A stretch of DNA of 64,000 nucleotides. Source: Coffea arabica. Lineage: Eukaryota; Streptophyta; Magnoliopsida; Gentianales; Rubiaceae. The stretch lies in contig NC_092323.1 in the NCBI RefSeq assembly GCF_036785885.1, positions 4,628,501-4,692,500 on the forward strand. Direction: 5' to 3'. Within the stretch, counting starts at the first letter, position 1; every line of letters starts with the position of its first letter. The translations under genes and the position numbers were made by a program. This document shows, one piece after another, positions 29,244 through 64,000 of this stretch. The notes under the pieces were generated by a model. That model ran no database searches. It worked only from the letters and a program-made list of their open reading frames with translations, and was not told the DNA's origin.

Positions 29244-31214
29244 CTAAGCAGCCATGGTAATGGCAGGAGCTTTCTCTCCACCTTTCACGGAACAAAACAT
29301 ATTAAGAACATCAGCATGGTTTCTTATGTATCTCGGGCTCTTAGCAAGAAAGTCTTGTGCTTCATTATGCCTTCCCACTTTGAAGTAAGCTTCGAATAGT
29401 TGCAGAAATACAGATGTGGATGGATATCTCTTCACTGTCATTGCTTTTGAAAAGGCAACAGCATCATCAGGGCTTCCACACTTAGAAAGGTACTCAATGA
29501 AGGGCTCCAAAAAGGGTGGATATCCTTGTTTCTTCATCAGGGGAAGAACATCCAAAGCTTCTTTAAATCCTCCTTGTGCCAACAACATGCCTATCAAGAT
29601 TTTGTATGTGGAATGCCAAGGTTGCAAGTCTTTTCCATCAATCATTTCAGTAACAAGTTTGTATGAATCTGCTGCTCTGTTCTTACGGCAATATGTACTA
29701 ACCAATAATTCTAGAGCATATCCGGTACTAGAAGCCTCGACTTTCTCAACCATCTTTCGGAAACTATCTGAAGCTTTCTCCAGGTCACCAGCCAGACAAT
29801 ATCCTTCAACCAAGGATGCCCAGATTTTATGATCTGGAGTAGAATCAGATGCCTCCATGTTATCTATAAATTCACCTGCTTCATCATGTTTCCCACCCCT
29901 GCTGAGTTGAAAGGCAATCTTTCTTTGCAAAGTACCGTTGAGTTGAAACCCACCCTCTTCCAAGGCTTTTATAATGCTGTTGCACTCCCCAACTCTTGCA
30001 ACGCTGGTCAAAGACTTGAGAACTGCATCAAAAGCAGAATTTGTAATCACATTTCCACCCTCCCTAAAGATCCTCACAACTCTAGAAAATAAGTTCATAT
30101 CCAGCTCCTTTCCAACTACAATTTTCCGCAAAAGAAAAGTGCAATCATGCACTGATGGCTTATTCAAGCCCCCCATTGCAAACTCGTACAAATCCACAGC
30201 ATCCTTGATCATTCCCTTCTTAACAAACCTTCCCAAAACATCAACGTAGGTGTCCCTGTACATTTCAAACCCAGCATTCCTCATCTCATCAACAACCCTC
30301 CAGAATTTATTACTCGCATCCTCACCAGCTAATGCCCTCACCATAGCATTATACGTACGTTCATCATGTTTGCAGAGACCGCTCTCCTCAGCCCACCTGA
30401 AGAAAATCAACCCCTTGTTTGCACCAATCCCAAGATTGTCCACAACCATCGACACCAACTCACTAGAAAACTCAACATTCAAGCCCCGAAGCCGCTTTTC
30501 CACATTATCACCCCAAAGCTCTGATCTAATAGCTCTACAAACCCGAGAACAAAGATTTTCAACTGAATTATCAGTCGACCCGGACGCGTACAAATCTTTT
30601 AACTTCTTAACATCATCACTCATCCCATCCTTCTCAAATTTCTCCAAAGCTTTAACAAACGTACCCTTCGATACTCCATAACCTTTCTTTTTCATAGTCC
30701 CAACCATATCCCAAAATTCCTTCACAAACCCATTACCAAGCAGTACACCCAGCATCAAATTATAAGATTTCGAGCTCAATCTCTTCTCGTTATCACTCTT
30801 TGAAACCCATTTGAAGAACCTCCGCGCCACATCAGGGGCAGCCTGGAGATTCTTCAACGCATTCAAAACCAAATCATGGGTTATGACAATGTTATTGGAC
30901 TCTAATTCCAGCTTAATTTTCTCATTACTCAGCTGGGTCTGGGAGAAAATGTCAGTCAGCACAGCAATTTGGTTTTGATCAGGTTGGTCTTTGGTGGGTT
31001 CAACGGCGAGCTCAGAAGAGGAGAAAAAACGGAGAGACATAGGGGGGTTATGAAGTTGATTGATAGTAACGCGCGGGGGATGAGGCGGGGAAAGCAGAGA
31101 ACATGACGAGATAGAGCGGGTAGAGTTTACCTGAGAGTGAGGTAGGGTGGAAATGAGCAGTCCAGACCGAGAGTGGCATCGGAGGAGAAGAAGCCAACGC
31201 CATTGATTTCTCAT
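29244..31214 (-). CDS. P-class pentatricopeptide repeat protein, mitochondrial (At3g02490/At5g15980-like)
   Basis: Intronless frame of 656 residues with an ATG start. The N-terminus is rich in Arg and Ser and poor in acidic residues for about 60 residues (MRNQWRWLLLLRCHSRSG), as in mitochondrial presequences. From about residue 100 on, helical pairs of PPR type repeat roughly every 35 residues, such as SYNLMLGVLLGNGFVKEFWD, TYNAMVRALAGEDASNKFW and KIWASLVEGYCLAGDLEKAS. There is no E or DYW extension, so it is P-class: these proteins bind organelle RNA for processing, stability or translation. Length and neighbourhood (next to a KIN-type gene) agree with Arabidopsis At3g02490 and At5g15980, as I recall them. 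The specific RNA target is unknown. A hAT-like element sits 248 bp upstream of the start codon. Confidence 0.9.
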   Translation of the reverse strand: MRNQWRWLLLLRCHSRSGLLISTLPHSQVNSTRSISSCSLLSPPHPPRVTINQLHNPPMSLRFFSSSELAVEPTKDQPDQNQIAVLTDIFSQTQLSNEKIKLELESNNIVITHDLVLNALKNLQAAPDVARRFFKWVSKSDNEKRLSSKSYNLMLGVLLGNGFVKEFWDMVGTMKKKGYGVSKGTFVKALEKFEKDGMSDDVKKLKDLYASGSTDNSVENLCSRVCRAIRSELWGDNVEKRLRGLNVEFSSELVSMVVDNLGIGANKGLIFFRWAEESGLCKHDERTYNAMVRALAGEDASNKFWRVVDEMRNAGFEMYRDTYVDVLGRFVKKGMIKDAVDLYEFAMGGLNKPSVHDCTFLLRKIVVGKELDMNLFSRVVRIFREGGNVITNSAFDAVLKSLTSVARVGECNSIIKALEEGGFQLNGTLQRKIAFQLSRGGKHDEAGEFIDNMEASDSTPDHKIWASLVEGYCLAGDLEKASDSFRKMVEKVEASSTGYALELLVSTYCRKNRAADSYKLVTEMIDGKDLQPWHSTYKILIGMLLAQGGFKEALDVLPLMKKQGYPPFLEPFIEYLSKCGSPDDAVAFSKAMTVKRYPSTSVFLQLFEAYFKVGRHNEAQDFLAKSPRYIRNHADVLNMFCSVKGGEKAPAITMAA

Positions 31215-40858: not shown

Positions 40859-42634
40859 TCAACCCTCATTTATTTTCAACTCTTGAATGTGAATTTGAGT
40901 AGTTTTAGAAATTAAGCCTCTATGGACCAAATTGTCCCAAAAGGTATTTAGGCAGCTTCCGTCATTAGCAAAAGAAGCACTAAAGCTTTTGTAGATTTTG
41001 AGAGTTACCATCAACCGTCTCCTATACATCTCATGTGACAAACTTGAAAATGCGACCATGTTTCCCTCTTTAAAGTAAGCATAAGCCAGACTAGTGTATA
41101 CCACACTATCTCCTGATATTCCCTTCTCATTCATAGTGATAAAAACTTTCTCGGCGCAATCAACCTTTTCCCGCTTACACAGGCGTCGTATAAGTGCCCT
41201 GTATACAGAGATGTCAATACAAAGACCTCTCCCTGAAAGTTCATCTGGCAATTTTATTATTGCTTTTTCATCATCTTGGTTGCAGTAAAAATCTACAAGC
41301 CAAGAGAACATGCAATAACTAGGAGACAGTCCTGCAGCAAGCATCTCGAATAATATATCTTTAGCGCCATTTACATCCTTCACTTTGCAATACCCATGAA
41401 TTAATGCCTTAAAAGTAAAAGAGTCAGGTTTCAATCCAGCCCCTAACATCTTACTTCTAACCATCAAAGCAGACCTCATATCTCCAATTTTGCAATAGGC
41501 ATTTATCAAAGTATTACATGTGATGTTATCAGGTTCAACCTTTTTCCCATTCATCTCATTCAACAGTCTATTTGCGTCCTTTATCCGACTGTCTTCACAC
41601 AGTTTGCGAAGAATTGAATTATAAGTCACAACACCAGGATACAACCCCTTAGCCTCCATGGTATCACGCAATTGTAAAGCTTGATCAAGATCATTCACTC
41701 TGCAATATCCATTGATCAAGGTAGTGTATGTAACCTGGTTTGGTGTAACCCCTTTAATTTCCTTAAAAAGCCTGTGAGCCTCCCTCATTCTACTTTCCCG
41801 GCAATAACTGTAAATGAGAGAATTATAGGTAAAGATATCTGGACAAACACCCCCAGATTTCATCCTATCCTGCACGCACAAAGCCTCATGATGCATGCCC
41901 TTTTTGCAGTACAAAGAGATTAACGTATTATACGTTATTAGATCAGGAAATACAGCCTTAAACTCCATTTCTCTCAATAACTCTTCTGCTTTCTCCACGT
42001 CCCCGGACTTGCAACAAGCATGAATCAACACATTGTATATATGCAGGTTTGGAACGACCCCAGCTTTTATGATCTTCCTGTATAATTTCCACACTGTATC
42101 ACATAATCTATCCTTGACCAAAGAGTTCAACAGGACAGTACAAGCATGCAAATGAGGTTTAAACCCACATAGCCTCATGTGCTCAAACACTTGAACGGCA
42201 TCCTGTGTCTTTTTAGAATTAGCATAAAATATCACCAACCAACTCAAAACATGAGAATTCACATCTGGACTGTCACAACCGCTCACAAGAGCATTCAACA
42301 CCGTTGGCGATGACAAAAAATCTTTAAGCGCAATCCTTTCAAGCATAGCATGTGCAGACTTGAAATGCTTTTGCTTAGTTAACACACAAATCATTGTCCA
42401 ACAAGACTGTAAAGAATGGTTGTAATCGGGAATGGTTTCAACCCATTTATAAAATGACCAAGAAAGAGAAAACCCATATGACGAAAGGCTAATAAGTGCC
42501 TGATTGATCGTACTTGAAGACACAAAAGAACCAATCTTGGGCTTCAAAATATCGTCCCAGTGACCCTTCACCACAATGGCGCACACAGTTTTGACAAATA
42601 GACTTTCACTGCTTACCCTAACGGAGATAGCCAT
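40859..42634 (-). CDS. P-class pentatricopeptide repeat protein (At5g38730-like)
   Basis: Intronless frame of 591 residues starting at ATG. From about residue 120 to 530 it is a nearly continuous array of canonical 35-residue P-type PPRs, easily seen as repeated (V)TYNTLI..YCK..(M/D)...A motifs, for example LITYNTLISLYCKKGMH, GVVTYNSILRKLCEDSRIKD and DNITCNTLINAYCKIGD. The regular fifth- and 35th-position residues should give a readable RNA code. There is no E, E+ or DYW tail. Overall length and the shared N-terminal segment (SWSFYKW, HSLQSCW) match Arabidopsis At5g38730 (596 residues) as I recall it. An organellar RNA-binding role is inferred from the family; the N-terminus is not a strong classic transit peptide. 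A Stowaway MITE and an LTR element lie upstream. Confidence 0.9.
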   Translation of the reverse strand: MAISVRVSSESLFVKTVCAIVVKGHWDDILKPKIGSFVSSSTINQALISLSSYGFSLSWSFYKWVETIPDYNHSLQSCWTMICVLTKQKHFKSAHAMLERIALKDFLSSPTVLNALVSGCDSPDVNSHVLSWLVIFYANSKKTQDAVQVFEHMRLCGFKPHLHACTVLLNSLVKDRLCDTVWKLYRKIIKAGVVPNLHIYNVLIHACCKSGDVEKAEELLREMEFKAVFPDLITYNTLISLYCKKGMHHEALCVQDRMKSGGVCPDIFTYNSLIYSYCRESRMREAHRLFKEIKGVTPNQVTYTTLINGYCRVNDLDQALQLRDTMEAKGLYPGVVTYNSILRKLCEDSRIKDANRLLNEMNGKKVEPDNITCNTLINAYCKIGDMRSALMVRSKMLGAGLKPDSFTFKALIHGYCKVKDVNGAKDILFEMLAAGLSPSYCMFSWLVDFYCNQDDEKAIIKLPDELSGRGLCIDISVYRALIRRLCKREKVDCAEKVFITMNEKGISGDSVVYTSLAYAYFKEGNMVAFSSLSHEMYRRRLMVTLKIYKSFSASFANDGSCLNTFWDNLVHRGLISKTTQIHIQELKINEG

Positions 42635-44273: not shown

Positions 44274-44687
44274 TGTTATGTCTAGAATAATTCTGCCGGT
44301 TGTTGTCAGCTGGAGTTTATTACTGCTAGGAAGTTGTTATGCTATATCAGATGGTTGGTTGAGTTAGTTGCGCCACATTAGCCATCCTGTTAGTTAGTTA
44401 AGTAGCTGGAAAGGGAAAGCTCGTGCAGAAATGGAAAGCTTGTGCAGGAGGCTGATTACTGAAATAGAATTAGTACTAAAATAGAAGGTGGTGGCAGGTG
44501 AGTATATAAAAGGGGCTAGGGGGATGAGAGGTACGGGTAGTCTGATCAGTCTAATTCAATTGTATTCATTTCAATTCCCTATTCTCATCTCTGCAATAAT
44601 ACTATCTCTCTTCCTCGAGTTGTCTTCTCCAATTTGCAACTCCTGTTTGAGAGAATTTTCCTATGATCTCCACTGCCCTTCGCATCA
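44274..44687 (+). repeat. 5' LTR of the Ty3/gypsy element
   Basis: 414 bp, beginning TG and ending CA. It has a TATA-like tatataaa at about 44503-44510, where the element's own promoter is expected. About 95% identical to the 3' LTR by eye. Confidence 0.93.
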
Positions 44688-47600
44688 GTGGTATCAGAGC
44701 TGGGGGACAGACCAGCTCATACAGCAATGGCGGAGGGTACTAGATCTCAGGATAACCGAAGGTTCGAAGAGAGCGTGAAGGCTATGATGAAGGAACAGAA
44801 AGAGCAGTTTGAACAGGAGATGGCAGCTCTCCGGAACTTGGAGAGCTGTACTCTCAAAGAGGACAATCTGCAAGGAACTCACCTTCTGAAAATGAGGTAT
44901 CTCAGGGGAGGAGTTACCAAGCCCCTACGCATTTTTCTCATCTGGAATTTCCTAGATTCCATGGAGAAGGCTTCCAAGGGTGGTTGTTTAAGATCGAACA
45001 ATTTTTTGAGGTAGATGAGACGCCAGTTCATATGAGCGTAAAACTGATTGCGATGAACTTGGAGGGAAAGGCTCTCCAGTGGCACCAAATCCTTTTAAGG
45101 TCGCGAGTCACAAGAGATTTACCTGCTTGGGAAGAATATATTAAGGAGATGGCGTCAAGATTTGGAGGATGTTTGTATGATGATCCAATGGGGGAATTAA
45201 AGGCCTTGAAACAAGAAGGATCAGTCTTGGAATACCAAGAGCAGTTCGAAGAGCTGCTAAATAGGGTAGACCTTCCTGAAGATTATGCCACAAGCTGCTT
45301 CATCAGTGGATTGAAGACAGAGATACAACTAGCTGTGAGGATGTTCAAGCCTAAAACGTTGTAACATGCCAAGTCGCTAGCTAAACTGGAGGAAGCAAAA
45401 ATTTCGACTCAACAGAAGAGAGGAGTGATTAAAACTGGCTTTCACTCTAATGTGGACGATAGGTGGAGGAGAGAAAGGAACTTTGAAAGATCTTGGAAGA
45501 AGGAGAGTAACATTGATCGCGCTTGGAGAAGGGATGATAAGGCACTGCTGCCCACCCCTAACCAGGAGAGGAGTGAGAAGGTTCCAGAAAGATACACCAG
45601 GAGGCCATTCAAAAGACTGACCTATAGTGAAATGGATGAAAAGAGAGCAAAAGGTCTTTGTTTCTGGTGTGATGAAAAGTTTGGAGTTGGCCACAGGTGC
45701 AAGAATAGGCAGCTGTTTCGATTGGAGGTGTGTGCAGAGGAGGATGGTGAAGAGCTAGAGATAGAATCTGAGGAGGAGGGGGAAGCATCACAGGGTAATT
45801 TGGCTCACATTTCCTTAAACACTATGACTCTTACTGCTGTCCCTAAGTTTAGAACAATGCGAGTGACTGGACATGTAGGGAAGACCTCAGTAAATATTTT
45901 TATTGACTATGGAAGCTCTCACAATTTTGTTCATCCAGATTTAGTTAACAAACTGGGTCTGAAGGTGCAAGGAGTACCATCACTTGTGGTGGAAGTAGCA
46001 GATGGCAACAAAATCACCACCAATAGATTGTGTCCTGATTTCACGTGAAAGATGCACAAACAGACGTTCAAGGCTGATGCTATGGTGTTATCTGTGGGAG
46101 GTTGTGAGTTAGTACTGGGGGTACAATGGCTCTCAACATTGGGCGATATAAAGTGGAACTTTGAAGAACTGAAAATGAAATTTCTGAAGGGAAAGAGGAA
46201 GGTGGTGTTGAGAGGGAAGGGTCCGCAGGCCATTCAAGTGGTGCAAAAGAGGACCATGCAGAAGATCCTGCGGAAGCCTGAGTAGATTGCTTTCGCACAG
46301 CTGTGCCTCATTGTACCTGTGCAGGTACCAGCAAGGGAACAGACAGGCAGTCTCTGCCAATTGGAGGAAGAATTACAGGTAGCAGACCCTAGCCATGGTT
46401 CTGAAGCAAGGGAGCTGAATGAACTGTTAATGCAATTTGAGGATATTTTCGAAGAACCTTCTGAACTCCCCCCTCACAGAAGCTACGATCACCAAATTAT
46501 ACTCAAGGAAGGAACAGTGCCTATGAATGTAAAGCCTTACAGATATCCTGTCTTCCAGAAAAATGAGATTGAAAAGCTGATTCAGGAGATGCTACAATCT
46601 GGAGTCATCAGGCACAGTACAAGTCCCTTTTCTTCTCTAGTTGTATTGGTCAAGAAGAAGGATGGAACGTGGAGGATGTGCATTGACTATAGGGAACTAA
46701 ATGCAGCTACTGTGAAGGACAAGTTCCCCATACCAGTGGTAGAAAAACTAATTGATGAGTTATTTGGATCTCATTTCTTCACTAAACTGGATCTTAGATA
46801 TGGTTATCATCAGATAAGAATGTGTGCGGATGATATTGCTAAAACTGCCTTCTGAATTCACAAAGGGCATTATGAGTTTGTTGTGATGCCCTTCGGGCTG
46901 ATCAACGCACCTTCCACATTCCAAAGTTTGATGAACACCGTATTCAGGCCTTATTTGAGGAAGTTCATACTGGTTTTCTTTGATGATATTCTTGTGTTTA
47001 GTCCAAACTGGCCTGACCACATCAGACACTTGCAGATCACCTTAGGAACTCTGCGGCAGCACAGTTTGAAAGTAAAAAAGAGCAAGTGCTCTTTTGCTCA
47101 GTCGCAAGTGGCATATTTGGGGCATGTAATCTCAGGAGAAGGAGTGCAGGCAGACCCTCATAAGGTGCAAGCAATTCAACAGTGGCCTATACCATCAAAT
47201 CTGAAGGAGTTAAGGGGGTTTTTTGGATTAGCAGGGTACTATAGGAGGTTCATACAAGGTTTTGGGAAGCTGGCCAGATCCTTGACAGATTTGCTCAAAA
47301 AGAACAGCTTTGTGTGGACAGGACAGGTTACAACAGCATTTTTAGCACTGAAAGTGGCTATGAGTTCACCTCATGTGCTGGCTCTACCATATTTCTCTTA
47401 GACATTTGAAGTGGAGACAGATGCCTCAGGTCATGGTATTGGGGCAGTTCTGAGTCAAAAGGGGAGACCCTTGGCTTACTTTAGCCAAGCTTTGGCCACC
47501 AAGCATAAGGGTCTTTCTGTATATGAAAGGGAAATGCTAGCTATAGTAAGTGCAGTTCAAAAATGGAGACCGTACTTGTTGGGTAGACACTTTGTCATTA

Positions 47601-49263
47601 AGACTGACCACCAGAGTCTTAAATATCTGATTGAGCAAAGAGTATCCACACCTATGCAGCAGAAGTGGGTGGCTAAGCTTATGGGGTATGACTATGAACT
47701 TCACTATAGGAAAGGGGTTGATAATGTGATAGCTGATGCATTGTCCAGACAACCTTCTGTCAGTACAGCAATATTAGCTCCTATATCCGTCATTCGATCT
47801 GCACTGCTTGCTGAGATTCAACAGAGTTGCGTTCAAGATCCCTTGTTGCAAGGCATTATTCAGCAGTTGCAGGCCCCTGCAAATGACCCTCAGCATGTGC
47901 ACTACACCTATCAGCATCAGCAACTGAGGCGGAAAGGAAAGTTGGTAATAGGAAATGATCCAAACTTGAGGTTGAAGCTCATTAGACTGTGGCATGATAC
48001 CTCCATTGGGGGGCATTCAGGTATGCAGGTGACCTATAAGAAACTTAAGGAGTTGGTATATTGAAAAAACATACAGAGAGATGTCGAACAATATGTGGCT
48101 TCGTGTGATGTTTGTCAAAGGCATAAGAGGGAGAATGTGGCATATCCAGGTCTGCTACAACCATTGAGTATTCCAGAACGTGTGTGGTCTGACATATCCA
48201 TGGATTTTGAGAAGGGATTGCCTCAATCTCATGGAAAGGATGCTGTTCTTGTGGTGGTGAATAGGCTCAGTAAGTATGCTCATTTCATTGCTCTCAAACA
48301 CCCCTACACAGCTCTCTCAGTTGCACAGGTATTTTTAGATAATATCTATAGGCTCAATGGCCTCCCTCAGACGATAGTCAGTGATAGGGATGCAACTTTC
48401 ATTAGTCACTTTTGAAAGGAATTGTTCCATTTGTTGAAAGTGCAGTTGTGTTTATCTACTGCTTATCATCCTCAGTCAGATTGCCAGACTGAGGTTGTTA
48501 ACAGATGCTTGGAGAACTATCTGAGATGCATGTGCAGTGATCATCCCAAATAATGGTGTTTTTGGTTGCCACTGGCAGAACTTTGGTACAATACAAATTT
48601 TCACTTAGCTATAAGGAGCACCCCCTACGAGATTGTCTATGGCCAGTCACCTCCCTTGCACATTCCTTACATGCCGAGCAGTTCTACTGTTGATAGTGTG
48701 GATAGGAGTCTAGCTGCACGAGAGACCACTCTACACCTGCTGAAGCATAACTTGCAGAAGGCTCAGCATCGCATGAAGCAGCAGGCTGACCAACACAGGT
48801 CTGAAAGATCTTTTGAGCCAGGGGATTGGGTTTATGTTAAGCTCCAACCGTATAGACAGCACTCACTCCGGACTCATTCTTGTCAAAAACTATCACCACG
48901 ATACTTTGGACCTTTTCAGATCATTGCAAAAATTGGTTCTGTTGCATATAAGTTGCACCTTCCCTTAGAGATCAAGATACATCCCACCTTCCATGTTTCC
49001 CTTTTGAAGAAACATGTAGGGGATCATCCAGTGCAGCAACACATCCCCATTCGTATCACTGATCAGGGTCATTTGCTCATAGAACCAGTCGCTATTCTAG
49101 ATAGGAGATTAGTACGCAGGGGACGAACTGCTGCTACACAGGTGTTGGTCCAATGGAGCAACAGTTTCCCAGAAGATGCGACTTGGGAGTACTGGTTTGA
49201 TCTCCACCAGCAGTATCCTCACTTCAGTTCTTGAGGACAAGAACTGTTTGACGTGGGGAGTAT

Positions 49264-49677
49264 TGTTATCTCTGGAATAATTCTGCCGGATGTTGTCAAC
49301 TGGAGTTTATTACTACTAGGAAGTTGTTATGCTACATCAGATGATTGGTTGAGTTAGTTGCGCCACATCAGCCATTCTATTAGTTAGTTAAGTAGCTGGA
49401 AAGAGAAAGCTCGTGCAAAAATAGAAAGCTTGTGCAGGAAGCTGATTACTGAAATAGAATTAGTACTAAAATAGAAGGCGGTGGCAGGTGACTATATAAA
49501 AGAGGCTAGGGGGATGGGAGGTACGGGTAGTCTGATCAGTCTAATTCAATTGTATTCATTTCAATTCCCTATTCTCATCTCTGCAATAATACTATCTCTC
49601 TTCCTCGAGTTGTCTTCTCCAATTTGCAACTCCTGTTTGAGAAATTTTTCCTGTGATCTCCACTGCTCTTCGCATCA
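49264..49677 (+). repeat. 3' LTR of the Ty3/gypsy element
   Basis: 414 bp partner of the 5' LTR, TG...CA, same length without indels, preceded by a purine-rich gtggggag tract. Followed by the duplicated cagaa. Confidence 0.93.
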
Positions 49678-50260: not shown

Positions 50261-51346
50261 TCACTCTTCCTTCTCGACGTACTCGTCCTCACTCTGGCTC
50301 CAGCAGCATTTCAGAATTGACCTGGGAGACCCACAGCAACCAGCGCCAGTGAAACTCTGGTAGATAATTGATCCTCCCTTCCCGAGCATTTCACAGCTCC
50401 TTTCCTCACACGTGTATCCTTTCAAGTTCAAGTTGAAATCAAAATCAAGCTCTTCTCCAGAACTACGACTGTGCAGAGCAAAACAAAACTCCGTGGGTTG
50501 GAAACAGGCCAACACCCTTTCAAGAAGCTTGGTTAAGTCTAGAACTTTCGAGTCATATCCAACGGCTTCAAAACTAGCATAACTGAAGCCATCCTCAGGT
50601 GTAACATGAATAGTCGAGATTGCATCTCCTTCGATTGAATTCATGGAATACCCACAGGGATCAAAGTCAAAATCACAGATCTCTGATTGGGGAAGAATCT
50701 TTCTTATGCCAGAGGTTTCAGTCATGACAGCACCAGACCTTGACTGCGTTTTATGAAACACTGCAGCCCTATTCTTGTCCAACCCAGTCATGCACATTTC
50801 TAAGGTATAAACCGGATCCATATTTTCCATGTGTTCAGCTGAAGCAGAGTAGACATGTCATTTCTGCTGCTTCTCAGCACCACCCAACAGATAAGCTCTA
50901 CTGCCTGCTCCAAGTTTGCCAAAATAGCTGTTTAGGACAGCTACTTCCTCATAAAAATTGCAGTGTGGATAAGGCTGAGCACCAGGAAATATAAAACTCC
51001 CACGGGAATACCTCACTGATTTCACTCTGAGTTTGAGGTCACCAGCAAACTTCAGGATCAATGGAATTGAAAGAAGCAACTTTGTAGTCCCACAAGTTTT
51101 GAGTATGATTTTGTAAGGGAAGATGAAAAGACTAGATTCTGAGAGTATATAGGAATCGACTTCACCATTCGATAATGAGGACACAATGGTGCAATGAGCT
51201 GGTTTTAGAATTTCATCCAACTGGTAATTTGAAAAAGTTCGAAGCCCACGACCACCAGGGTCAGCAAAGATACCAGGTTCAAAAAATGATATTTCAAGCC
51301 TTTTTTCAAAACCTTCAAATCCAATGGCAGAGACTGGCAAGGCCAT
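50261..51346 (-). pseudogene. SAMDC: S-adenosylmethionine decarboxylase with an in-frame nonsense codon
   Basis: The intronless main ORF runs from ATG at 51346 to the stop at 50261 and would give 361 residues, the usual plant length. Codon 163 is TGA (50860-50858) where the family has Trp in a conserved KWHVYSAS segment. The frame is open on both sides of it. The first 162 codons keep the [10 protein letters not shown] active-site region, the self-cleavage site LSESS (cut between residues 70 and 71, giving the pyruvoyl group) and the CGTTK catalytic Cys. The rest keeps the putrescine/processing region and the C-terminus. The enzyme makes decarboxylated SAM, the aminopropyl donor for spermidine and spermine. 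As read, only a truncated, surely inactive protein is made. Alternatives are a recent null allele, a dispensable paralogue, or a single-base sequence error. Several other usually conserved sites also differ (for example PYPHCN for PFPHRS), which favours a relaxed paralogue. Confidence 0.85.
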
Positions 51347-51481: not shown

Positions 51482-51734
51482 TCAGGATGGCTTCCGAGCG
51501 CACTGCACATACAAGATAAACAAGCTACAGGTTCGTATGACACAGTTATGATATTAAAAAAACATGACATAAATTACATTACAAGGGAGCTAAACTCACG
51601 TTGGAGTAAGCAGCAGATCTGAATTTCTTGATTCCTCCAGCAGGTCCTACGTCCTCAATGCTGTATCCAAGGGGAGCTTCGTATAATAATGATTTACTAC
51701 CACTAGACTTCTTCTTCCCACCTTTACACTCCAT
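51482..51734 (-). CDS. SAMDC small upstream ORF (conserved-peptide uORF), split by an intron
   Basis: Minus-strand exons 51734-51600 and 51502-51482 encode 51 residues. The peptide begins MECKGGKKKSSGSKSLLYEA, continues PLGYSIEDVGPAGGIKKF and ends AYSN, then CARKPS from the second exon. The intron is 97 bp with a GTGAGT donor and a TGTGCAG acceptor. This is the conserved SAMDC uORF of plants: when polyamines are high its translation stalls ribosomes and represses the downstream decarboxylase ORF, which starts about 135 bases further on. Length (51) and the C-terminal RKPS agree with the family. Two residues in the usually conserved DVRP(N/H)GG segment differ (DVGPAGG). Confidence 0.93.
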
Positions 51735-51742
51735 TAGATCAT
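51734..51742 (-). CDS. SAMDC tiny upstream ORF (Met-Ile-stop)
   Basis: ATGATCTAATGG: a two-codon ORF whose stop codon overlaps the start of the small uORF by one base (51734). This tiny/small overlapping pair is diagnostic of plant SAMDC leaders; the tiny uORF allows ribosomes to bypass the repressive one when polyamines are low. In my leader reconstruction it holds the first AUG of the mRNA. Confidence 0.9.
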   Translation of the reverse strand: MI

Positions 51743-51763: not shown

Positions 51764-53055
51764 CTGTAAAAAAAAGGATCAGATAAACTCGAGGCAGAAT
51801 GAACAGAGGAAAACAAACAATTCAGCATTAAAATTTATGAACCTGATAGTGACAACCACAAGTTATCCAGCACAAGAAACAAGAACAATGAATCCAGATG
51901 TTATGCTTAAAAAGTGGAAAGGTTTTATCAAGTTTATACATCAAGTAAAGATATCCAGGAAGGCAAAAAGGCGACACAGAAACCTTTGCAAGACGAAAAG
52001 AAAGCACTTAAATTGCAGGAAAAGCCAAGGCAAAGAATGCCATGGAACAAGTAGCAGTGTTAAAATAACAAATGTACTCAGAGGAAAAAGAAATCAAAAT
52101 CGAAACTTAAAACTTGAGCAGGGCATACAGCCATTGGCAACTCCCCCCCTCCCCCCCCCCCCCAACAAAAAAACAACAACCAAAAAAAAAGAGCCAAACT
52201 GCAAAATCAATTGGTTTTGAAAAAATCACAACAGATTAAGATCAGTGGCAAAGATAACAGCCTTTTAGCTCTCCCCCCCACCCCCACCCCCACCCCCACC
52301 CCAAAAAAAAAAGGAAAAAGAAAAAGGAATTAGAAATCTTCTTTGGCGAAGGTATACAAAATAAAAAATAAAAACTGGAGCCAAAGAAAAAGGAACAAAG
52401 AAAACATATAATTCAAGAATAAATCATTGGCAAATATAAGATGGTTACTCCAACTAATATTGGCATAATTACTCACAATTAAAAAGATCAACTTCCACGT
52501 ATGTGATTATAATAATTTTCTTATTATGGATGATAACAACAATGTGAAGTGCAAATAACCTAGATACAACATGCAGAAAATATTTAAGAAAAAAAAAAGA
52601 ACCAAACCACGTGCGAAGAAAATAATATAACTGGGAACAATAACATAAAACAGGGTCCCAAAACTCTGGCTCATAGCAACACCAAAGCTTATCAATTGCC
52701 AAAAAAAATTTATATAATTAAATAAATAAGAAGGCTCACAGAAAATTACCTTGATTCGAAAACACACAATGCAGCAGAAACCTCAAGCAGCCGCACAAGC
52801 CCTAAAAATCCAAGAAACCAAATCCCAATAAACAAATATCTAAAAATTCACTAGTAGATGCAAAACATAAAGGGCAGTCCAACAAATAACAAGAAACTAA
52901 CGTCTTACCTCTTGTATTTACGTAATTGACGATAGAGAATAGGAAATTTGACAAGAGAGATCGAACAAACTCCAATTTCGTGCTTCTGAATGACGGGGTT
53001 AGTCTGTCTTAATTTTTCTGCAGAGACAAAAGTGGTTGAAAGAAGATGGATTTTC
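51764..53055 (-). promoter_or_regulatory. SAMDC 5' leader: two non-coding exons and introns
   Basis: The leader can be read as exon 1 from about 53055 to 52909 (donor GAG/GTAAGA), exon 2 at 52801-52750 (acceptor TTTTTAG, donor AAG/GTAATT) and exon 3 beginning at 51763 (acceptor TTTACAG). Exon 2 lacks ATG, as does exon 1. The introns hold AT-rich DNA plus two C-run/A-run tracts. The exon model is inferred from splice signals and the known structure of plant SAMDC genes. Confidence 0.65.
52141..52311. repeat. C-run/A-run tracts including a (CCCCCA)n minisatellite
   Basis: Two tracts inside the large SAMDC leader intron: about 52141-52193 (cytosine runs passing into A-rich) and 52274-52311, the latter four units of CCCCCA ending in A10. 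Low-complexity DNA. Confidence 0.85.
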
Positions 53056-53083
53056 TCACTAAATTGAGGAGCCACCCAATGCG

Positions 53084-53092
53084 TTATATATA
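53084..53092 (-). promoter_or_regulatory. TATA box of SAMDC
   Basis: TATATATAA on the minus strand, placing transcription start near 53055. An ATTGGGTGG (inverted CCAAT) follows downstream. Confidence 0.65.
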
Positions 53093-53130
53093 GAAGCAGA
53101 AAGCGGACAGCTTGTGGTCGATGACCGTGC

Positions 53131-53136
53131 CACGTG
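53131..53136. promoter_or_regulatory. G-box (CACGTG) in the SAMDC promoter
   Basis: Perfect palindromic G-box within gccacgtggt, about 40 bp upstream of the TATA box; a good position for bZIP/bHLH binding. Function inferred. Confidence 0.5.
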
Positions 53137-53484
53137 GTTGAATGAAGTATGATATTACGGTCTTACCCCTCCGTGATTTGGCCTAAGTAGCTTTAATTTT
53201 ACGGTAAATTGGAATTAGAATTAATGTATGATACGATTGGACTCCAGCTCATCTGCGTCTTTAACTTAGTCATCGGGACTCAGGTCTGGTTAGACTTCAG
53301 CCTAAAATCGCTGAAACACAGGCGCTTTTAAGGCTTTTCATCCTTTCTTCTTTTTTTTTTAACCCTTCAAAGAGGAGGATGGCAAAAAAGATTCTATGCA
53401 CATCCGAATTTCTCGAGGCATCATGCAACTTCGGGGTTTTTTCTTTTTTATCAGAACGGCAACATTGTATTAATAGTAAACCAA

Positions 53485-56400
53485 TTACAGTATAGGTGGG
53501 CAATAGCTCTTACAATCGGCCTGGACTTGTTCCAGCAGCCAAACTAGGAAGTTTTCCTTCCATTCAGTATTTTGTTCCAAAGTAATAGCTACTTTAGCTA
53601 GTTTATGGCTAACAAAGTTGTTCACCCTATTTGTAAAGGTAAAACAACATTCATCAAATTTTAACCTAAGTATCCTGATGTCATGTACAATTGTTGCTAT
53701 CACTACGTCCTCCTCCTCACTGCACACTGCTTTCACTACTTGACTACAGTCCACTTCAAACTCCACACTTCGCCAACCTTGCTGTTGTGCAACTATCATG
53801 GCCTCTCTTAGAGCCTTTGCTTCTTCGACCTTGGGACTGGCACAGCTAAAATTTGGAATAGCCCGGGCCCCTCGCAATCTTCCCAACCAACCCCTGGCCA
53901 CCATTCCCTACCCAGCTCTATCAGCTTTAAGATGCAACGTAGCATCTGAATTCATCTTAACCCAACCAACCCTTGGTTTCCTCCAACCTGTCGAGCCTTT
54001 ATCCTTCCTCGCATGATCTCCTTCTGTTCCGTTTTCCCAATCCTGAGCTTCCTGGTACTCCCTCCACTCCCTCAATGCTTTCTCCACTGCTACCCTTGGG
54101 TCTCCATTCCTTTCCTCAAACTGTCTTGCATTCCTGGACTTCCAAATTTGCCACAGCAAGTTGACGGTCAGAGTAATGCGCTCCCACCCATTTTCCTCCT
54201 TTGCTGCCCCATTTAATTCCTCTCACCAGTGCCAGAACCTGTTTGAAAACAACTCCAGCCCATCCCAGTTCAGTGGAGCAGCCTTCCATATCACCTTGGA
54301 GTGGTCACATAGAAACAAACAGTGTTCTATAGTCTCTGTGCTCTCCCCACAGCATTTACACATGGGATCGCCTTTGGAACATCGCTCTCGAATCACAGCA
54401 TTAACTGGAAACACCCCATGCAAACATTTCCAAATGAAATGTTTCAGCTTGTGCTTCATATTCAAGCCCCACAAAAAGTTCCAGCTCTGGCTATTCCCTA
54501 TTCTTGTGCAACTCGACCCAGTCTCTGTCCCCCACCGTAGCCCCCTCTTTTGCCTTTTCTTTGCCAATCTATAACCCGACTTAACTGTATACATGCCAGT
54601 AGAAGAAAAGTTCCAATATAAGCTATCCTTCCGTGGTTGTACTCCAAGTGGGATTCAGTATATTCTTTCCATACTCCTCCTCAAAAACTTGTTTGATTAG
54701 TTCCCTATCCCACTTCCCTTCCCGAATAAGCTCACTTACTTTCTGGATCCTCTTCCATTCCCTTTTCCTCATCCTAACCCTTCCATCCTCTGAACTAGGA
54801 AGCCAACGATCCTCCCAGATGTATATAGAGTTCCCATCCCCCACTCTTTTCCTAGTCCCTTCCTCCAATAACCCTTTTGCACTAAGTAGACTCTTCCAAC
54901 ACCATGAATCCCCATTAGATGCCCTTGTATTCCAAATAGACAGACCTTTAAAGTATCTAGCCTTCATTACCTTACTCACCAAGAGGTGTGGCTTTGTCAA
55001 AAGCCTTCAAAACTGCTTAGACCATAATGCTAAGTTGAACTCATGCAGCTCCCGAAAACCCAATCCTCCATCTGCCTTTACCTCAGTCAACTTCCCCCAC
55101 CTAAGCCAATGAATCCTATGCTCATCCTTTCTCTGACCCCACCAAAATCTCGCCATCTCCGAACATATATCCTTACATAAGGTCAGTGGCAACAAACAAC
55201 AAGACATTACATAGGTAGGTAGGACCATTACAATAGATTTCAACAATACCTCTTTTCCAGCTGGAGTCAAAAGCTTCTCCTTCCATCCAGTGAGTCTTAC
55301 AGTTGCTTTTTGCCTAATGAAATCAAACACCTGCCTTTTGGACCTCCCAATGACCAATGGCAAACCCAAATATTTGCTCTGCGATACCTGCCTCATTCCC
55401 CGCAGCTCAGCCATCACCCCATCTTTTTGTGCCTTCTTGACATTTCTGCTGAAGAAGATTGAGGATTTCGCAACATTAATCATCTAGCCAGAAGCTCGTT
55501 TGTACACCTCCAGGATTCTCCTCAGATGACCAGCCTTCTCTCCACTTGCCTTACAAAAAATCAAAGAGTCATCTGTAAAAAACAAATGAGACAGTCTGGG
55601 AGTACCTCTTGCAATCCTCAAACCTGTCAGCCGTCCTTGTTCATTTGCTTGTTTTAATAGGGAAGAAAACCCCTCAGCACAGATCAGAAACAAATAAGGG
55701 GATAGAGGGTCCCTTGTCTCAGCCCTCTAGATGGTCTAATAAAACCTATTTTTTCTCCGTTAAAGTTCACTGCATAGGTTACACTAGTTACACAGTTCAT
55801 GATCCAGTTAATCTATCAAGGACAAAACCCCATCTTAAACATCACCTTCGCCAGAAACTCCCACTCAACCCTATCATACGCCTTGGTCATATCTAGTTTA
55901 AGCGCCATATATCCCTCCTTCCCAGTTCTTTTATTTTTTAGGAAGTGAACACATTCATGGGCTACAAAGATATTGTCTAAAATCTGTCTGCCCGGAACAA
56001 AGGCAGATTGAGACTCACTTATACATCTACTAAGAACAGTTTTGAATCTGTTGGTTAGGACCTTAGAAATGATTTTGTAGAGTACATTACACAAGCTAAT
56101 TGATCGAAAATCAGACATAGTACAAAGGGCATCAGTTTTAGGAATCAAGCTAATCAAAGTTTCATTGATTGACTTTAGCAGAAAACCAAAATTGAAAAAA
56201 CTATGCACAGCCCGAATAACATCAAATTTGACAATGTGCCAAAATTTTTGAAAGAAGGCAGGAGACATACCATCAGGTCCTGAAGACTTGTTTGGATGCA
56301 TTGAAAAAATTGCTCGGCTTATTTCCTGATCAGTAACTGGCCTGATTAGATTCCTATTCATCTTAGTGGTTACAGTATGTGGGATTCCTTGCAAAACTTC

Positions 56401-57633
56401 ATCAAACTCACCAGGGTTGTCTGACGAAAACATATGTATGAAATAGTCTAATATCTCCTTACAGGTCTCCTCCTTTCCCTCACATCATTCCCCATTCCTC
56501 TTTTTCAACACACTGATCCTATTTCTTTTCCTCCTACCAGTCGCCATAGCATGGAAATAGCTAGTATTTTTATCCCCCTCCTTAAGCCACTGCACCCTGG
56601 CCTTTTGACTCCAATAAATTTCCTCTTTATTGTAAGCCTCAGCCAACTTCTTCTTAAGGTTTATTAGGTGTGCCCGTGAGCCTTCATCAGTCCTTTCTTT
56701 TATTTCATTAATCTCCTTTTTCAACATTTCAATCTGTGTCCTTGAGTTTCCTGCCCATCATTTGCTCCATCGCAATAGGTCCATTCTAACCTGTCTAATT
56801 TTGCACTGCACTTTATATAGCCTAGATCCCTGCTGCTGCTCCCCCCATGCCTTCCTTATTACCTCCTCAATATCCTCTTGTTGTAGCCACCGTTGATCAA
56901 ACATAAACCTTTTCTTTCCTCTCCTGTTAGCAGGTCTAGTATCCAGCACCAACATGCAATGATCTGAGGCCTCGGTGTCCACATGTAAACACTTAGCTCT
57001 TCCCATCCTCTCTACCCAATCTTTGTTGCCTAAAATCCAATATAATCTCTCCTTTACCTCACCCTCATTTCCCCAATTGTTACTCCAAATCCATGGTTTG
57101 CCTTCAAACACAATATCTATCAGTTCATTGTCGTTCATAAAGGATCTGAAATCTTGAAACCTCCATTCTGACATCTGGTTCTCTTCCTACTTTTCACTAT
57201 TGGAAACAATATCATTCAAATCCCCCATAATAGCCCAGTATTTACCTCACAACACATTTCTCCTAGTGAGAACTTTCTATTGCTCTTTCCGGATACCTAC
57301 ATCTGCACTAGCATAGACACATATACATCACCAGTCACATTTTGCTTCGTTGTCCTCAATTAACACCTCAATAGTGAAGCTAGTAAACAAGATTTTCTTT
57401 ATCACCAACTCCTTTTTCCACAATACAGCCAGCCTCCCTGCAATACCAACTGGATCCATCACAAAGACATTATCAAATTTAATCCACTGTTTCACCTTAT
57501 TTAAGTAGCTTTTCTTCTTCTTTGTTTCTGACAGGAAAACTAATTCCGGAGAGTGGAGTCTCACGACCTCCCTCAATTGGGAAACTTTCAAGGGGCTCTC
57601 CACATCTCGACAGTTTCACACCAGAGCCTTCAT
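53485..57633 (-). pseudogene. LINE ORF2: endonuclease-reverse transcriptase-RNase H, decayed
   Basis: Begins MKALV at 57633, where codon 6 is TGA in place of the Trp of the usual VWNCRG. Endonuclease remnants reach to about 56760, including LVFLSETK and the SDH catalytic triplet (ASDHCML). Reverse transcriptase covers about 56430-55010, with NKSSGPDGMSPAFF, FRSISLCNVLYKII, ALKLDMTKAYDRVEW and an FTDD box in place of the common FADD. A zf-RVT linker lies at about 54594-54223 (SGYRLAKK, KHFIWKCLHGVFPV). RNase H covers about 54159-53485 (VEFEVDCSQVVKA), ending CPPIL at 53485. Several stops and frame changes split the frame. Confidence 0.87.
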
Positions 57634-59149
57634 GAAGACCCCGGAGCCCCTTGTAGGGTGGACTCCATACCCTCAGATAGATCCATCCATTCATTAGAAT
57701 CAGCGCCAAACCTAACCCTCTTCCAGTTCTCTTTTCCTACTCGCCCCTCAGAATCCTCCCCATCTTCTTCCTCCAGCTTCCTTTTCCCATCGCCAGCTCC
57801 ACGCAGCTCCACATTCACCTCTCCCAGTGGCCTCCTCTTACTCACCTCCAGCACTATTCTTTTCCATGTCCTACTCACCCCTTGCCTTCCTGTAGACTTA
57901 CTTTTCTGTCTACCTCCCTTCCCCCTCCCTTTACTATCCCCAGGCTGTGACTCATCATCCCCCCTCTCCTTAATCCCTCATTGATCTTGTCCCCCTCAAT
58001 ATGCCCTTGTCCCCCATCCACCCACATCAGATCATCCCAACCTTCCCTCTCCTCCACAATGCTTCCCAGACCCTGTAAATCCCTCAGCCCCTCATCCCTC
58101 CCATCTTTCCCATTTTCCTTACCCCTCCCATCACTATCTTTCCTAACCATCGTAACCCTGTTGTGCACCTCTTCCCTTGCAGCTTCCCCTTTTCCCCTAC
58201 CCCTCTCCTCACCTACACCCTCCTCTTTTCCATCATTTGAGACCTGATTCGTGGTCAACTCCCCCTCAGACCAGTCCTTAGAATGTGCTGCCTTATAGAA
58301 ATCCTTCGTAGAGGTTAGCAGGAATTTATCCCCAGGCCTCGCTTTATCTGTATTATCTCATGCCTGACCTCTCACCTCCTCAGCACCCCCATTCACATTA
58401 CTATTCCTGCTCCTCCTATTTGGACTTCGAGGAAGACTGGCTCTCATCCAGCTCCCAAATTGAGCGCCCCCTAGATTCAACCCCTTCTGCCCGCAAATTC
58501 GTTCAGTATGCCCAATCTTGCCACATCCAAAGCAGAATTCTGGGCATTTTTCATATCTAAACGCAATCCACCTTTTCTCACCATTGCAACTCACCATGAT
58601 TCCTCGAGGCAGTGGAGTAGATAGGTCAATTTCTACTAAGAGTTTCAGATGTTTGCCCTCCTTACCCCCGCTTTGTGGCACTATCACGTCACACACCTTT
58701 TGGAAAATACTGCCTATTTTCCGTCCAGCTTCTTTCATAACCCAATGCAATGGAATATTCCAGATCTGGACCCAGATTAGTGTATTTCGCAAGGCCTCTT
58801 CATCATCCTCCAATCCTTTTTTCCACCTCAGAAGCACAAGTGGCTGCCCATCATAAATCCATGGACTTCGATTCATCACAGCAGTCATATCATTTTCTTT
58901 TTCGAAGATGAACTAGAACAAGTTGCGTCCTATTTCCATCACCCGAACATTCTTTGCCTGTGACCACATACTAAGCGCAAAACTCCTCAATCCACCTATA
59001 TTTGCCTGCCTATCCCCTCAAACCCTCCCTATCAGACTCATCTTACATTCCAGTACACCTTTTGGTATCTCATCCTTCCCCAGACTGACTTCATCGCGTT
59101 CCTTCTCAGAGAGATTAAACCTTCGCAGGATTTCTTCAATGTTCTCCAT
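57630..59149 (-). pseudogene. LINE ORF1: DUF4283/CCHC nucleic-acid-binding protein, decayed
   Basis: Likely starts at ATG 59149 (MENIEEILRRFNLSEKERDE), the usual opening of plant LINE ORF1. A DUF4283-type region follows, including PWIYDGQPLVLLRWKKG. Next is a CCHC zinc knuckle CFGCGKIGHTERIC, then a long charged Glu/Gly/Arg-rich tail ending in the ORF1 C-terminal string KRIVLEVSKRRPLGE. In-frame TGA codons lie at 59018-59020 and 58358-58360, and the frame changes near 57880. Its final TGA overlaps the ORF2 start as ATGA (57633-57630). Confidence 0.85.
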
Positions 59150-59651
59150 CCTCCTCCCACAGTGGAACCACTGCTTACTCAAAACCTGTACAAACCAGTC
59201 ACGATCCAGAAATAGTCTGCGTTGTTTCAACGCCACCAACCAAACTCCAGTACCAAAACCTGAGAACTAACACACAGACACAGAATTAGAAGATCCAAAA
59301 CACGAAGCGAAACTGGAACACATGATCAAAAAAGAAAAATAAAAAATGAAAGATGGCAGCAAGGATCGACGCACCTAGATCTCCAAGGACTGGGACATCA
59401 GGATAAAATACGCTACATTATCTAGAAATCCAAGCGTATATCCAGAGCGAGTAGATGAATTCGGAAAGTTTCCTACAGTGGAAGGTTTTTGAATTTGGCG
59501 GTTGAATTTTGATCTTATTTTGGGAAAGTTTAATTTGGGAAAGTTTGTTGCAGAAGTTTCTAACACCCACAAGAGGCAATTTTCTCTCTCTAGAAACGAG
59601 AGAAAACGCTCTCATAGAGAGAGACTAACCCGCATCCTAACTTCGGGGTTT

Positions 59652-62035: not shown

Positions 62036-63067
62036 ATGTCAGCTTTTCCAATTATTCCCAATAATGGCTTAATAATTTCTCAAGAAAGATTCAAACTTGA
62101 TGTCGGAGAACCAAAATTTTTAGGAACATATAGAAGTGTAGCTAGTTCATTTTCTAAGTCATATCATAGTTTAGTTTCTCTGCCTTTATTGGGATGGAAT
62201 TATGGTCATTGGACATCCCAACATAGATTATATTTGCATAGTACTAGGTTTAAGTCACTCAGCAATGAGACGAGACAGGCAGAAACCCGCTTGGGGAAAA
62301 AGGTGAATTATGGTACGAGAAGGAAATTTTCAATAAGATTGCGACCGAGGTTAAGATTATACTGGAGAAGATTGAAAAGGGTTTCCATAAGCTCGATTTT
62401 AAATGGTCTTGGAACATTCATTCGTAAAAACGTGAGAAGAGTGACCCTTTCGACTTCTGTTGCGGTTGTTTTGGGGCTCTGCTTTTTGTTTCTGAAACTG
62501 ACTGCAACGTCGCCTCCTAAAGTTGTTCCCTACTCCGACTTGATCATGAGCCTGCAAAATGGAATGGTGTCAAAGGTTCTTTTCGAGGAGGGTACTCGTC
62601 GGATATACTACAACACAGAATCGTGGGTGATGAAAGATGCTCAAATATCAGAACGTGAAGCTTTAGCTCCTGGAAATAGTATAGATGATGGTCAAGCCGG
62701 CAATGATGTTCTAAAAACGAGTCAAATGGGTAGCAATGTGCTTAATAAAATGGTGAAAAGCCGAGCTTCTACTCCTTTATGGCAATTTTCTACCAGGAAG
62801 ATTGATCACGATGAAGGATATCTTCTTAGTCTAATGAGGGAAAAAGGAACTTCATACAGCTCAGCCCCTCAATCACTACTTGCGTCAATCAGGAATTCAT
62901 TGATAACAATGCTGTCATTATGGATCCCATTAACTCCTATCATGTGGCTTCTTTATCGTCAACTTTCTGCGGCCAATAGTCCAGCTAGAAGACGAAGGCC
63001 AAGTAATCAGTTGGTTACTTTTGATGATGTGGATGGTGTGGATACTGCAAAAGTAGAGCTTATGGAG
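62036..63067 (+). CDS. FTSHI3: FTSHi3-like inactive FtsH-type protein, first exon (gene runs off the window)
   Basis: Exon 1 codes for 344 residues from ATG 62036 to a GAG/GTATCC donor at 63067/63068. Layout: a basic, Ser-rich N-terminus of about 130 residues (probable chloroplast transit peptide with RLRPRLRLYWRRLKR), TM helix about 137-157 (TSVAVVLGLCFLFLKL), an FtsH extracellular-type segment (VPYSDLIMSLQNGMVSKVLF), a second TM about 288-308 (LWIPLTPIMWLLYRQL), and the start of the AAA module (VTFDDVDGVDTAKVELME). The LSLMREKG..YSSAPQS and WIPLTP.MWLLYRQLSAANSPA strings fit Arabidopsis FTSHi3 (At3g02450) as I recall it. FTSHi proteins lack the zinc-protease motif and act in plastid complexes. 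The rest of the AAA domain must lie beyond the window, so inactivity of the protease site is inferred from the family. Confidence 0.82.
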
Positions 63068-64000
63068 GTATCCTCAAAATTTTGCTCATTAAATTTCATT
63101 TGCAGACACGCTTCTCATTGTTGATTTTTCCGAGAATGCATATTAGAACTAGAGATTGTAACTAAGAGGAAGTTTAAATGGCCATGAAATTCTCTTTGAG
63201 GACATGATTCATGTGGGCCCGCCTGTGTAAATGCAGCTAAATATAGAGCAGAGATTGTTAGTTCAACCTTTTGACTGCTCTGTGGTACCATTTGCGCTTG
63301 ATGTGTGCAATGCTATTTGTCCCTTTCTTAAGCTGAACAATTGTTTGGTTCAAAACTTGGATATAGAAAAAGGAATATCATTCATAAGGAAAGTTCTGCA
63401 ATCTTTAAGTTTTGGCAATAATCTTATCCCCAAAGAAAAAAAGTTTCAGCAAAATAACTGTTATGAGAAAATATATTACATGCTGTTCTAAGCAGTATTA
63501 TGGTTTTTTTTCCCTTTTATTTTCCTAAATATCTTTCTCTTTTTCTGGTTTTACTAAGGATGAGTACAAGGAACCAGGTAACCCATTTACTGGACCTCTT
63601 GACCCTTAACATTTTTTGAAACTTAGTGTCACTCCTCATTAAATCAAGTATTGATCTACAACATTAGTTGTCCAACTGCAGTTTAAAACTGTCTTGGTAA
63701 ACTTGAATAGTTTATAGTTCAATATATGGAATTGGTTTCATACTCCATCATAGATGTAGATCACTAAACATGGTTTGCTTCTTAGATGAACATTGGTATG
63801 CCAACCACTTGGTGTACTTGCTTTAGTTACCAAATCTTATACTCAGGATGATTATAGACACTAATAGTTCTCACCTATTTTTGGTCTGGAAATGAGAAAG
63901 TCAAATTTCTCAGCATCATTATATGAACAATAGTTGTGATTGAATTTCTGCTTTGATTTTCACTTTCAATACTGCTTGCTAATAGTAAGAGACATACCTT
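63068..64000 (+). other. Intron 1 of the FTSHi3-like gene (partial)
   Basis: No second exon with Walker A or the expected EIVSCL-type continuation is visible, so this stretch reads as the first part of a long intron running off the window. Confidence 0.6.

Follow-up and report, generated by a model that had tools for sequence, protein, structure and literature searches.

The window, i.e. the whole 64,000-nucleotide stretch of Coffea arabica DNA that was analysed (C14:4628501-4692500, in a surveyed genome of 1,197,963,845 bases and 131 contigs), carries on its minus strand a SAMDC gene preceded by a pair of uORFs, with a retrotransposon on either side. Translation of the main ORF (361 codons, 51346-50261, minus strand) revealed a single in-frame stop, a TGA at codon 163 (50860-50858), and no frameshift between 51346 and 50261, so that the TGA is the sole interruption. 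Codons 1-162 (50861-51346) encode the beta chain, the processing site (LSE/SS; E70/S71 in the numbering of the translation) and the Cys85 region with the KTCGTTK stretch, whose Cys we take to be the catalytic one. Beyond the TGA, the frame runs on through codons 164-361 to the normal stop (50261-50857), and the usual C-terminus is retained. Either half of the ORF is recognised on its own by the Pfam model SAM_decarbox (E 2e-55 for the first half and 1.9e-50 for the second), and the first half also matches the structure of the potato enzyme (1mhm). The gene therefore has in common with the plant AdoMetDCs (PF01536; potato 1mhm) the family match on both halves, the processing site, the Cys region and an intronless main ORF, but differs from them in the break at codon 163 and in the alteration of several conserved residues. 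It retains the Pfam match of a functional plant AdoMetDC and lacks the uninterrupted frame, C-terminal half included, of such an enzyme; in other words, a disabling change lies within an otherwise alignable gene. The translation agrees with the initial annotation in three respects, namely the position of the TGA, the lack of a second break, and the persistence of the self-cleavage site, the catalytic Cys and the C-terminus.

Counting the SAMDC paralogues of the genome, as that annotation had proposed, placed the stop in context. A PF01536 search located at least eight SAMDC loci in four contig pairs (C13/C14, C21/C22, C5/C6 and C11/C12; the number is a lower bound, as only the best candidates were scored). 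Seven of the eight contain no stop in the PF01536 match, the TGA being confined to the window copy, and all seven, i.e. the syntenic copy on C13 and six others, have Trp at the position of codon 163. The C13 copy aligns with the window copy over all 1086 bases and differs from it at 22 of them (15 missense, one nonsense and six synonymous differences). The two regions are joined by colinear blocks (1.1 to 64 kb) interrupted by insertions, and the window SAMDC thus has an intact, syntenic partner on the homoeologous chromosome. We regard this partner as a homoeologue and not as an allele, because it occupies the syntenic position on a different contig of an apparently di-haploid allotetraploid genome: according to the accessible part of PMC11018527, the published ET-39 HiFi assembly of Coffea arabica was obtained from a di-haploid line and comprises 1,198 Mb in 132 scaffolds. 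Coffee is also indicated by an exon on C1 whose product is identical, over 135 amino acids, to 3,7-dimethylxanthine methyltransferase (PDB 2efj), the enzyme of C. canephora. The alternative of treating the contig pairs as phased haplotypes of a diploid was dropped, since the match to the di-haploid coffee assembly favours subgenomes.

The leader of the window copy (minus strand throughout) contains a tiny uORF (ATG ATC TAA, 51734-51742) that overlaps by one base with a small uORF, whose two exons (51600-51734 and 51482-51502, the latter encoding CARKPS and the stop) specify a 51-amino-acid peptide and are separated by an intron with GT..AG ends (51503-51599). The one-base overlap, the 51-codon peptide and the intron within the small uORF are shared with the plant AdoMetDC leader (homology group 3 in the available text of PMC2075485), and by its overlap and intron the window copy has a dual-uORF leader of this kind. 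The tiny uORF consists of 9 bases, as against 12 bp in the Arabidopsis genes (accessible part of PMC5745906). The initial annotation had described the uORF pair as complete, which holds for the frames, the overlap and the splice ends but not for the peptide: compared with its homoeologue on C13, the small uORF, although open, carries three missense differences (S3C, F17L and R30G) and one synonymous difference. At all three changed positions C13, C21 and C22 agree with each other, and the C21 and C22 peptides are free of differences, while Thr occupies the first of the three in C11/C12. Such changes may be of consequence, as regulation by the AdoMetDC leader depends on the sequence of the uORF peptide (PMC2075485, available text). 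As regards the remaining copies, a motif search at the C5/C6 loci (L013 and L014), extending 1.5 kb upstream from the match, found no small uORF, and the C12/C11 loci (L015 and L016) have a diverged leader, with ATG-TTG-TAA as tiny uORF and a small-uORF peptide that departs at many residues from those of the other copies. At 52120-52310, upstream of the uORFs of the window copy, the minus strand has long G-rich tracts.

Both flanks of the gene have been reshaped by transposition. Upstream lies a retrotransposon of 6.2 kb (53430-59640, minus strand; RVT_1 match at 55816-56433), which was classified as a LINE by its anatomy (no LTR seen, a T-rich end and a duplication). It is flanked by a 13-base duplication, its insertion site is empty on C13, and it is located about 380 bp upstream of the predicted SAMDC start site. 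The intervening segment (53061-53429, minus strand) probably represents what remains of the promoter, with a TATA-like box at ~53092-53084 and a start site presumably near 53060. The 5' flank (53061-53442) differs from C13 at 24 of 379 aligned bases (6.3%), which, segments of no more than a codon apart, is the highest divergence within the gene block. That the LINE insertion silenced SAMDC and so began its decay is a guess. Downstream of the gene there is an LTR retrotransposon (44274-49677, plus strand), judged by eye to be of the Ty3 type from its ORF order, whose two LTRs, at 44274-44687 and at 49264-49677, share 94.7% identity (22 mismatches over 414 bases). Plant substitution rates of 0.7-1.3e-8 per site and year convert this divergence into an age of roughly 2-4 Myr, i.e. 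into an insertion that would predate polyploidy. The ORFs of this element are split into several pieces, and the matching interval on C13 holds another, LINE-like insertion that is 65-77% similar, in pieces, to the LINE of the window.

The amino acid differences between the two homoeologues are distributed very unevenly. When the 15 missense differences of the main ORF were polarised by the C21/C22 pair, a yardstick of distant paralogues (dS about 1.5), ten were found to have arisen on the window copy (at positions 38, 67, 107, 129, 132, 154, 198, 205, 266 and 351) and one on C13 (position 255), with four ambiguous cases (positions 37, 158, 176 and 294). This 10 v 1 asymmetry has a binomial p=0.012, and becomes 13 v 1 (p=0.0018) when the changes of the main ORF and the uORF are combined. 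Two of the ten window-derived residues recur in more distant copies (that at 154 in C11/C12 and that at 205 in C5/C6), and four of the changes (L38F, V67I, R129C and S132Y) affect residues common to C13, C21, C22, C11, C12 and potato. Therefore, the picture of a SAMDC gene and leader intact apart from one codon, as drawn by the initial annotation, stands as far as the open frames are concerned and fails for the sequence itself, which differs from C13 by 15 missense changes in the main ORF and three in the uORF peptide; the earlier reading is right on the stop and overrated the integrity of the rest of the gene.

A comparison of substitution rates, another check suggested at the outset and performed here pairwise, gave a result in the same direction. 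The dN/dS ratio of the window/C13 pair is 0.75 (dS 0.0245), as opposed to 0.08-0.26 in the other SAMDC pairs (C21/C22, 0.26; C5/C6, 0.08; C11/C12, 0.25), and the ratio of missense to synonymous differences is 15:6, as opposed to 20:29 in those pairs pooled (Fisher p=0.036). In four neighbouring ORFs compared between the homoeologues no stops were found, and dN/dS was 0.30 for a B-box protein, 0.55 and 0.25 for two long ORFs that look PPR-like by eye (29244-31214 and 40859-42634, respectively), and 2.17 for an FtsH-like exon (62036-63124; FtsH_ext match). Because two of these four are likewise missense-rich (17:9 missense to synonymous in a PPR-like gene and 7:1 in the FtsH-like exon), the dN/dS ratio is weak evidence when taken alone. 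Relaxed constraint on the window lineage is indicated by the 10 v 1 asymmetry together with the raised ratio, read against a range of 0.25-2.17 in the neighbours, and we give more weight to the asymmetry between the copies than to dN/dS ratios, which are noisy at so few changes. The alignment of the gene block with C13 contains 15 indel events in noncoding parts and none in the CDS, and the frame was thus possibly kept for part of the branch. Constraint may accordingly have been lost part-way along it, a course of events with which the open uORF frames and the intact splice sites are also consistent.

Is a single stop remarkable under such conditions? Depending on the transition weight, 3.1-4.9% of single-base changes in the SAMDC CDS create a stop. 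By the codon table, from 11 to 20 of the 22 changes may lie on the lineage of the window copy, the lower bound consisting of the ten polarised missense changes plus the stop, and the upper one of all changes except those at codons 255 and 177. About 0.3-1.0 stops are therefore expected without constraint, and the one observed is unremarkable; a lone stop without any indel is roughly the outcome that drift should have on so short a branch.

As to the date of these changes, the accessible part of PMC11018527 places the split of the progenitors at 4-6 Myr and polyploidy at 350-610 kyr, from which the post-polyploidy share of the branch is calculated as 6-15%. With the dS of 0.0245, some 13 neutral changes are expected in 1086 bases, about 1-2 of them after polyploidy. 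Since only this small share of the branch falls later, most of the missense load should predate polyploidy. The TGA itself could be older or younger than that event.

Taken together, these data lead us to interpret the window SAMDC as a homoeologous pseudogene of a leader-regulated enzyme that lost constraint mostly before polyploidy, a reading to which we assign a probability of about 0.78. The suggestion of the initial annotation that this is a null copy is supported. Constraint would, in all likelihood, have been lost mainly while the gene was still in the diploid parent, which retained other SAMDC loci; drift would then have introduced missense changes into the main ORF and the uORF peptide and converted one Trp codon into TGA. 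If the gene is transcribed, its mRNA would yield a fragment of at most 162 amino acids, about 200 alpha-chain residues short. Ribosomes that pass the uORFs would halt at codon 163 and set free a fragment from which the second half of the alpha chain is missing. In plants, nonsense-mediated decay targets mRNAs with a long stretch behind the stop, and a transcript in which the stop is followed by some 600 bases of frame and then by the 3' UTR would be an expected target.

A different history, in which SAMDC worked until after polyploidy, the TGA is new in C. arabica or in this accession and the earlier missense changes were tolerated or adaptive, would fit the single disabling change, the lack of indels in 1086 bases and the existence of other homoeologue pairs in the window that are missense-rich without a stop. 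It is confronted, however, with the ten polarised missense changes against one, with the three changes in the uORF peptide, and with the substitutions at residues 38, 67, 129 and 132, where C13, C21, C22, C11, C12 and potato have one and the same amino acid. We consider it unlikely; nor is the recent null allele of the initial annotation favoured, given that the partner is a homoeologue and that the time since polyploidy is too short for the whole of the missense load. An error of sequencing or assembly in an otherwise functional gene, also raised at the outset, would need one base only, yet this base is surrounded by further changes that arose on the window copy, and the genome agrees in size with the HiFi assembly published for a di-haploid line (PMC11018527, accessible part); such an error is extremely improbable.

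The locus might also have been retained for its leader or its RNA, with a transcript that senses polyamines through the uORF pair as a decoy, or that gives rise to a regulatory fragment. The uORF frames, the one-base overlap and the splice sites are indeed intact, and deoxyhypusine synthase of trypanosomatids is reportedly an example of a catalytically dead paralogue with a regulatory role. There is also a precedent within the family, Arabidopsis AtSAMDC5, which according to the available text of PMC5745906 is believed to lack function despite an apparently active promoter. What weakens retention of this kind is that the peptide, on whose sequence regulation depends (PMC2075485, available text), carries three missense changes on the window copy, each at a residue common to C13, C21 and C22, with no difference between the peptides of C21 and C22 themselves, and that the LINE parts SAMDC from its older upstream flank. 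We think it highly unlikely, and see just as slim a prospect for its more specific form, a transcribed, polyamine-responsive decoy whose altered uORF peptide and 162-amino-acid fragment tune the translation or stability of the product of the intact homoeologue. Read-through of the TGA, by which some full-length enzyme would still be made, has a point in its favour in the base that follows, as UGA followed by C is a leaky stop context. The half of the frame behind the stop also bears missense changes, however, and Trp is used at the seven other SAMDC loci; read-through therefore has hardly any likelihood.

The preferred reading, a homoeologous pseudogene, has parallels in known systems. A dead member of the SAMDC family is not without precedent, because AtSAMDC5 is likewise a member seemingly without a working enzyme in a genome where active paralogues remain; AtSAMDC5 lacks a uORF (PMC5745906, accessible part), in contrast to the coffee copy, where the leader is present and the frame is interrupted by a stop. 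The case also resembles the homoeologue fractionation described for Coffea arabica in the available text of PMC11018527, in that one homoeologue is lost and the other kept. Unlike that fractionation, which proceeds mainly by excision, the loss of SAMDC came about by point mutation and left the gene at its locus. Among the matches listed in a literature search we found no report of a coffee SAMDC pseudogene. The kind of event is ordinary among the gene duplicates of hybrid polyploid plants. It provides a small, clean case in which a recent polyploid has lost one homoeologue of a tightly controlled enzyme, and is also a warning that a lone stop in an otherwise open frame can mask a wider decay of the gene, leader peptide included.

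The window is likely to belong to chromosome 7 of the eugenioides subgenome, and C13 to represent chromosome 7 of the canephora subgenome. Kona Typica has a Chr07C of 40.0 Mb and a Chr07E of 43.5 Mb in the table of PMC12307819, of which only part was available; C13 (40.5 Mb) is near the former, whereas C14 (50.5 Mb) matches the latter loosely. Swapped subgenome labels would leave the pseudogene interpretation unchanged, with the other parent in the role proposed above. The data suggest that a single homoeologue supplies the SAMDC function of chromosome 7, a point of relevance for annotation and expression studies only. For another accession, the accessible part of PMC10805892 describes a fixed exchange covering Chr7c:1-1,252,944. 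No such exchange was seen at 1.1 Mb of C13, a site that lies inside this span only if the orientations agree, and where C13 and C14 are 94-97% identical; identity at 1.8 Mb of C13 is 97%. Further exchange probes, at 0.6 and 39.8 Mb of C13, landed in repeats. The repeat matches of the probes seemed to be commoner on odd-numbered contigs, which is an impression and not a count.
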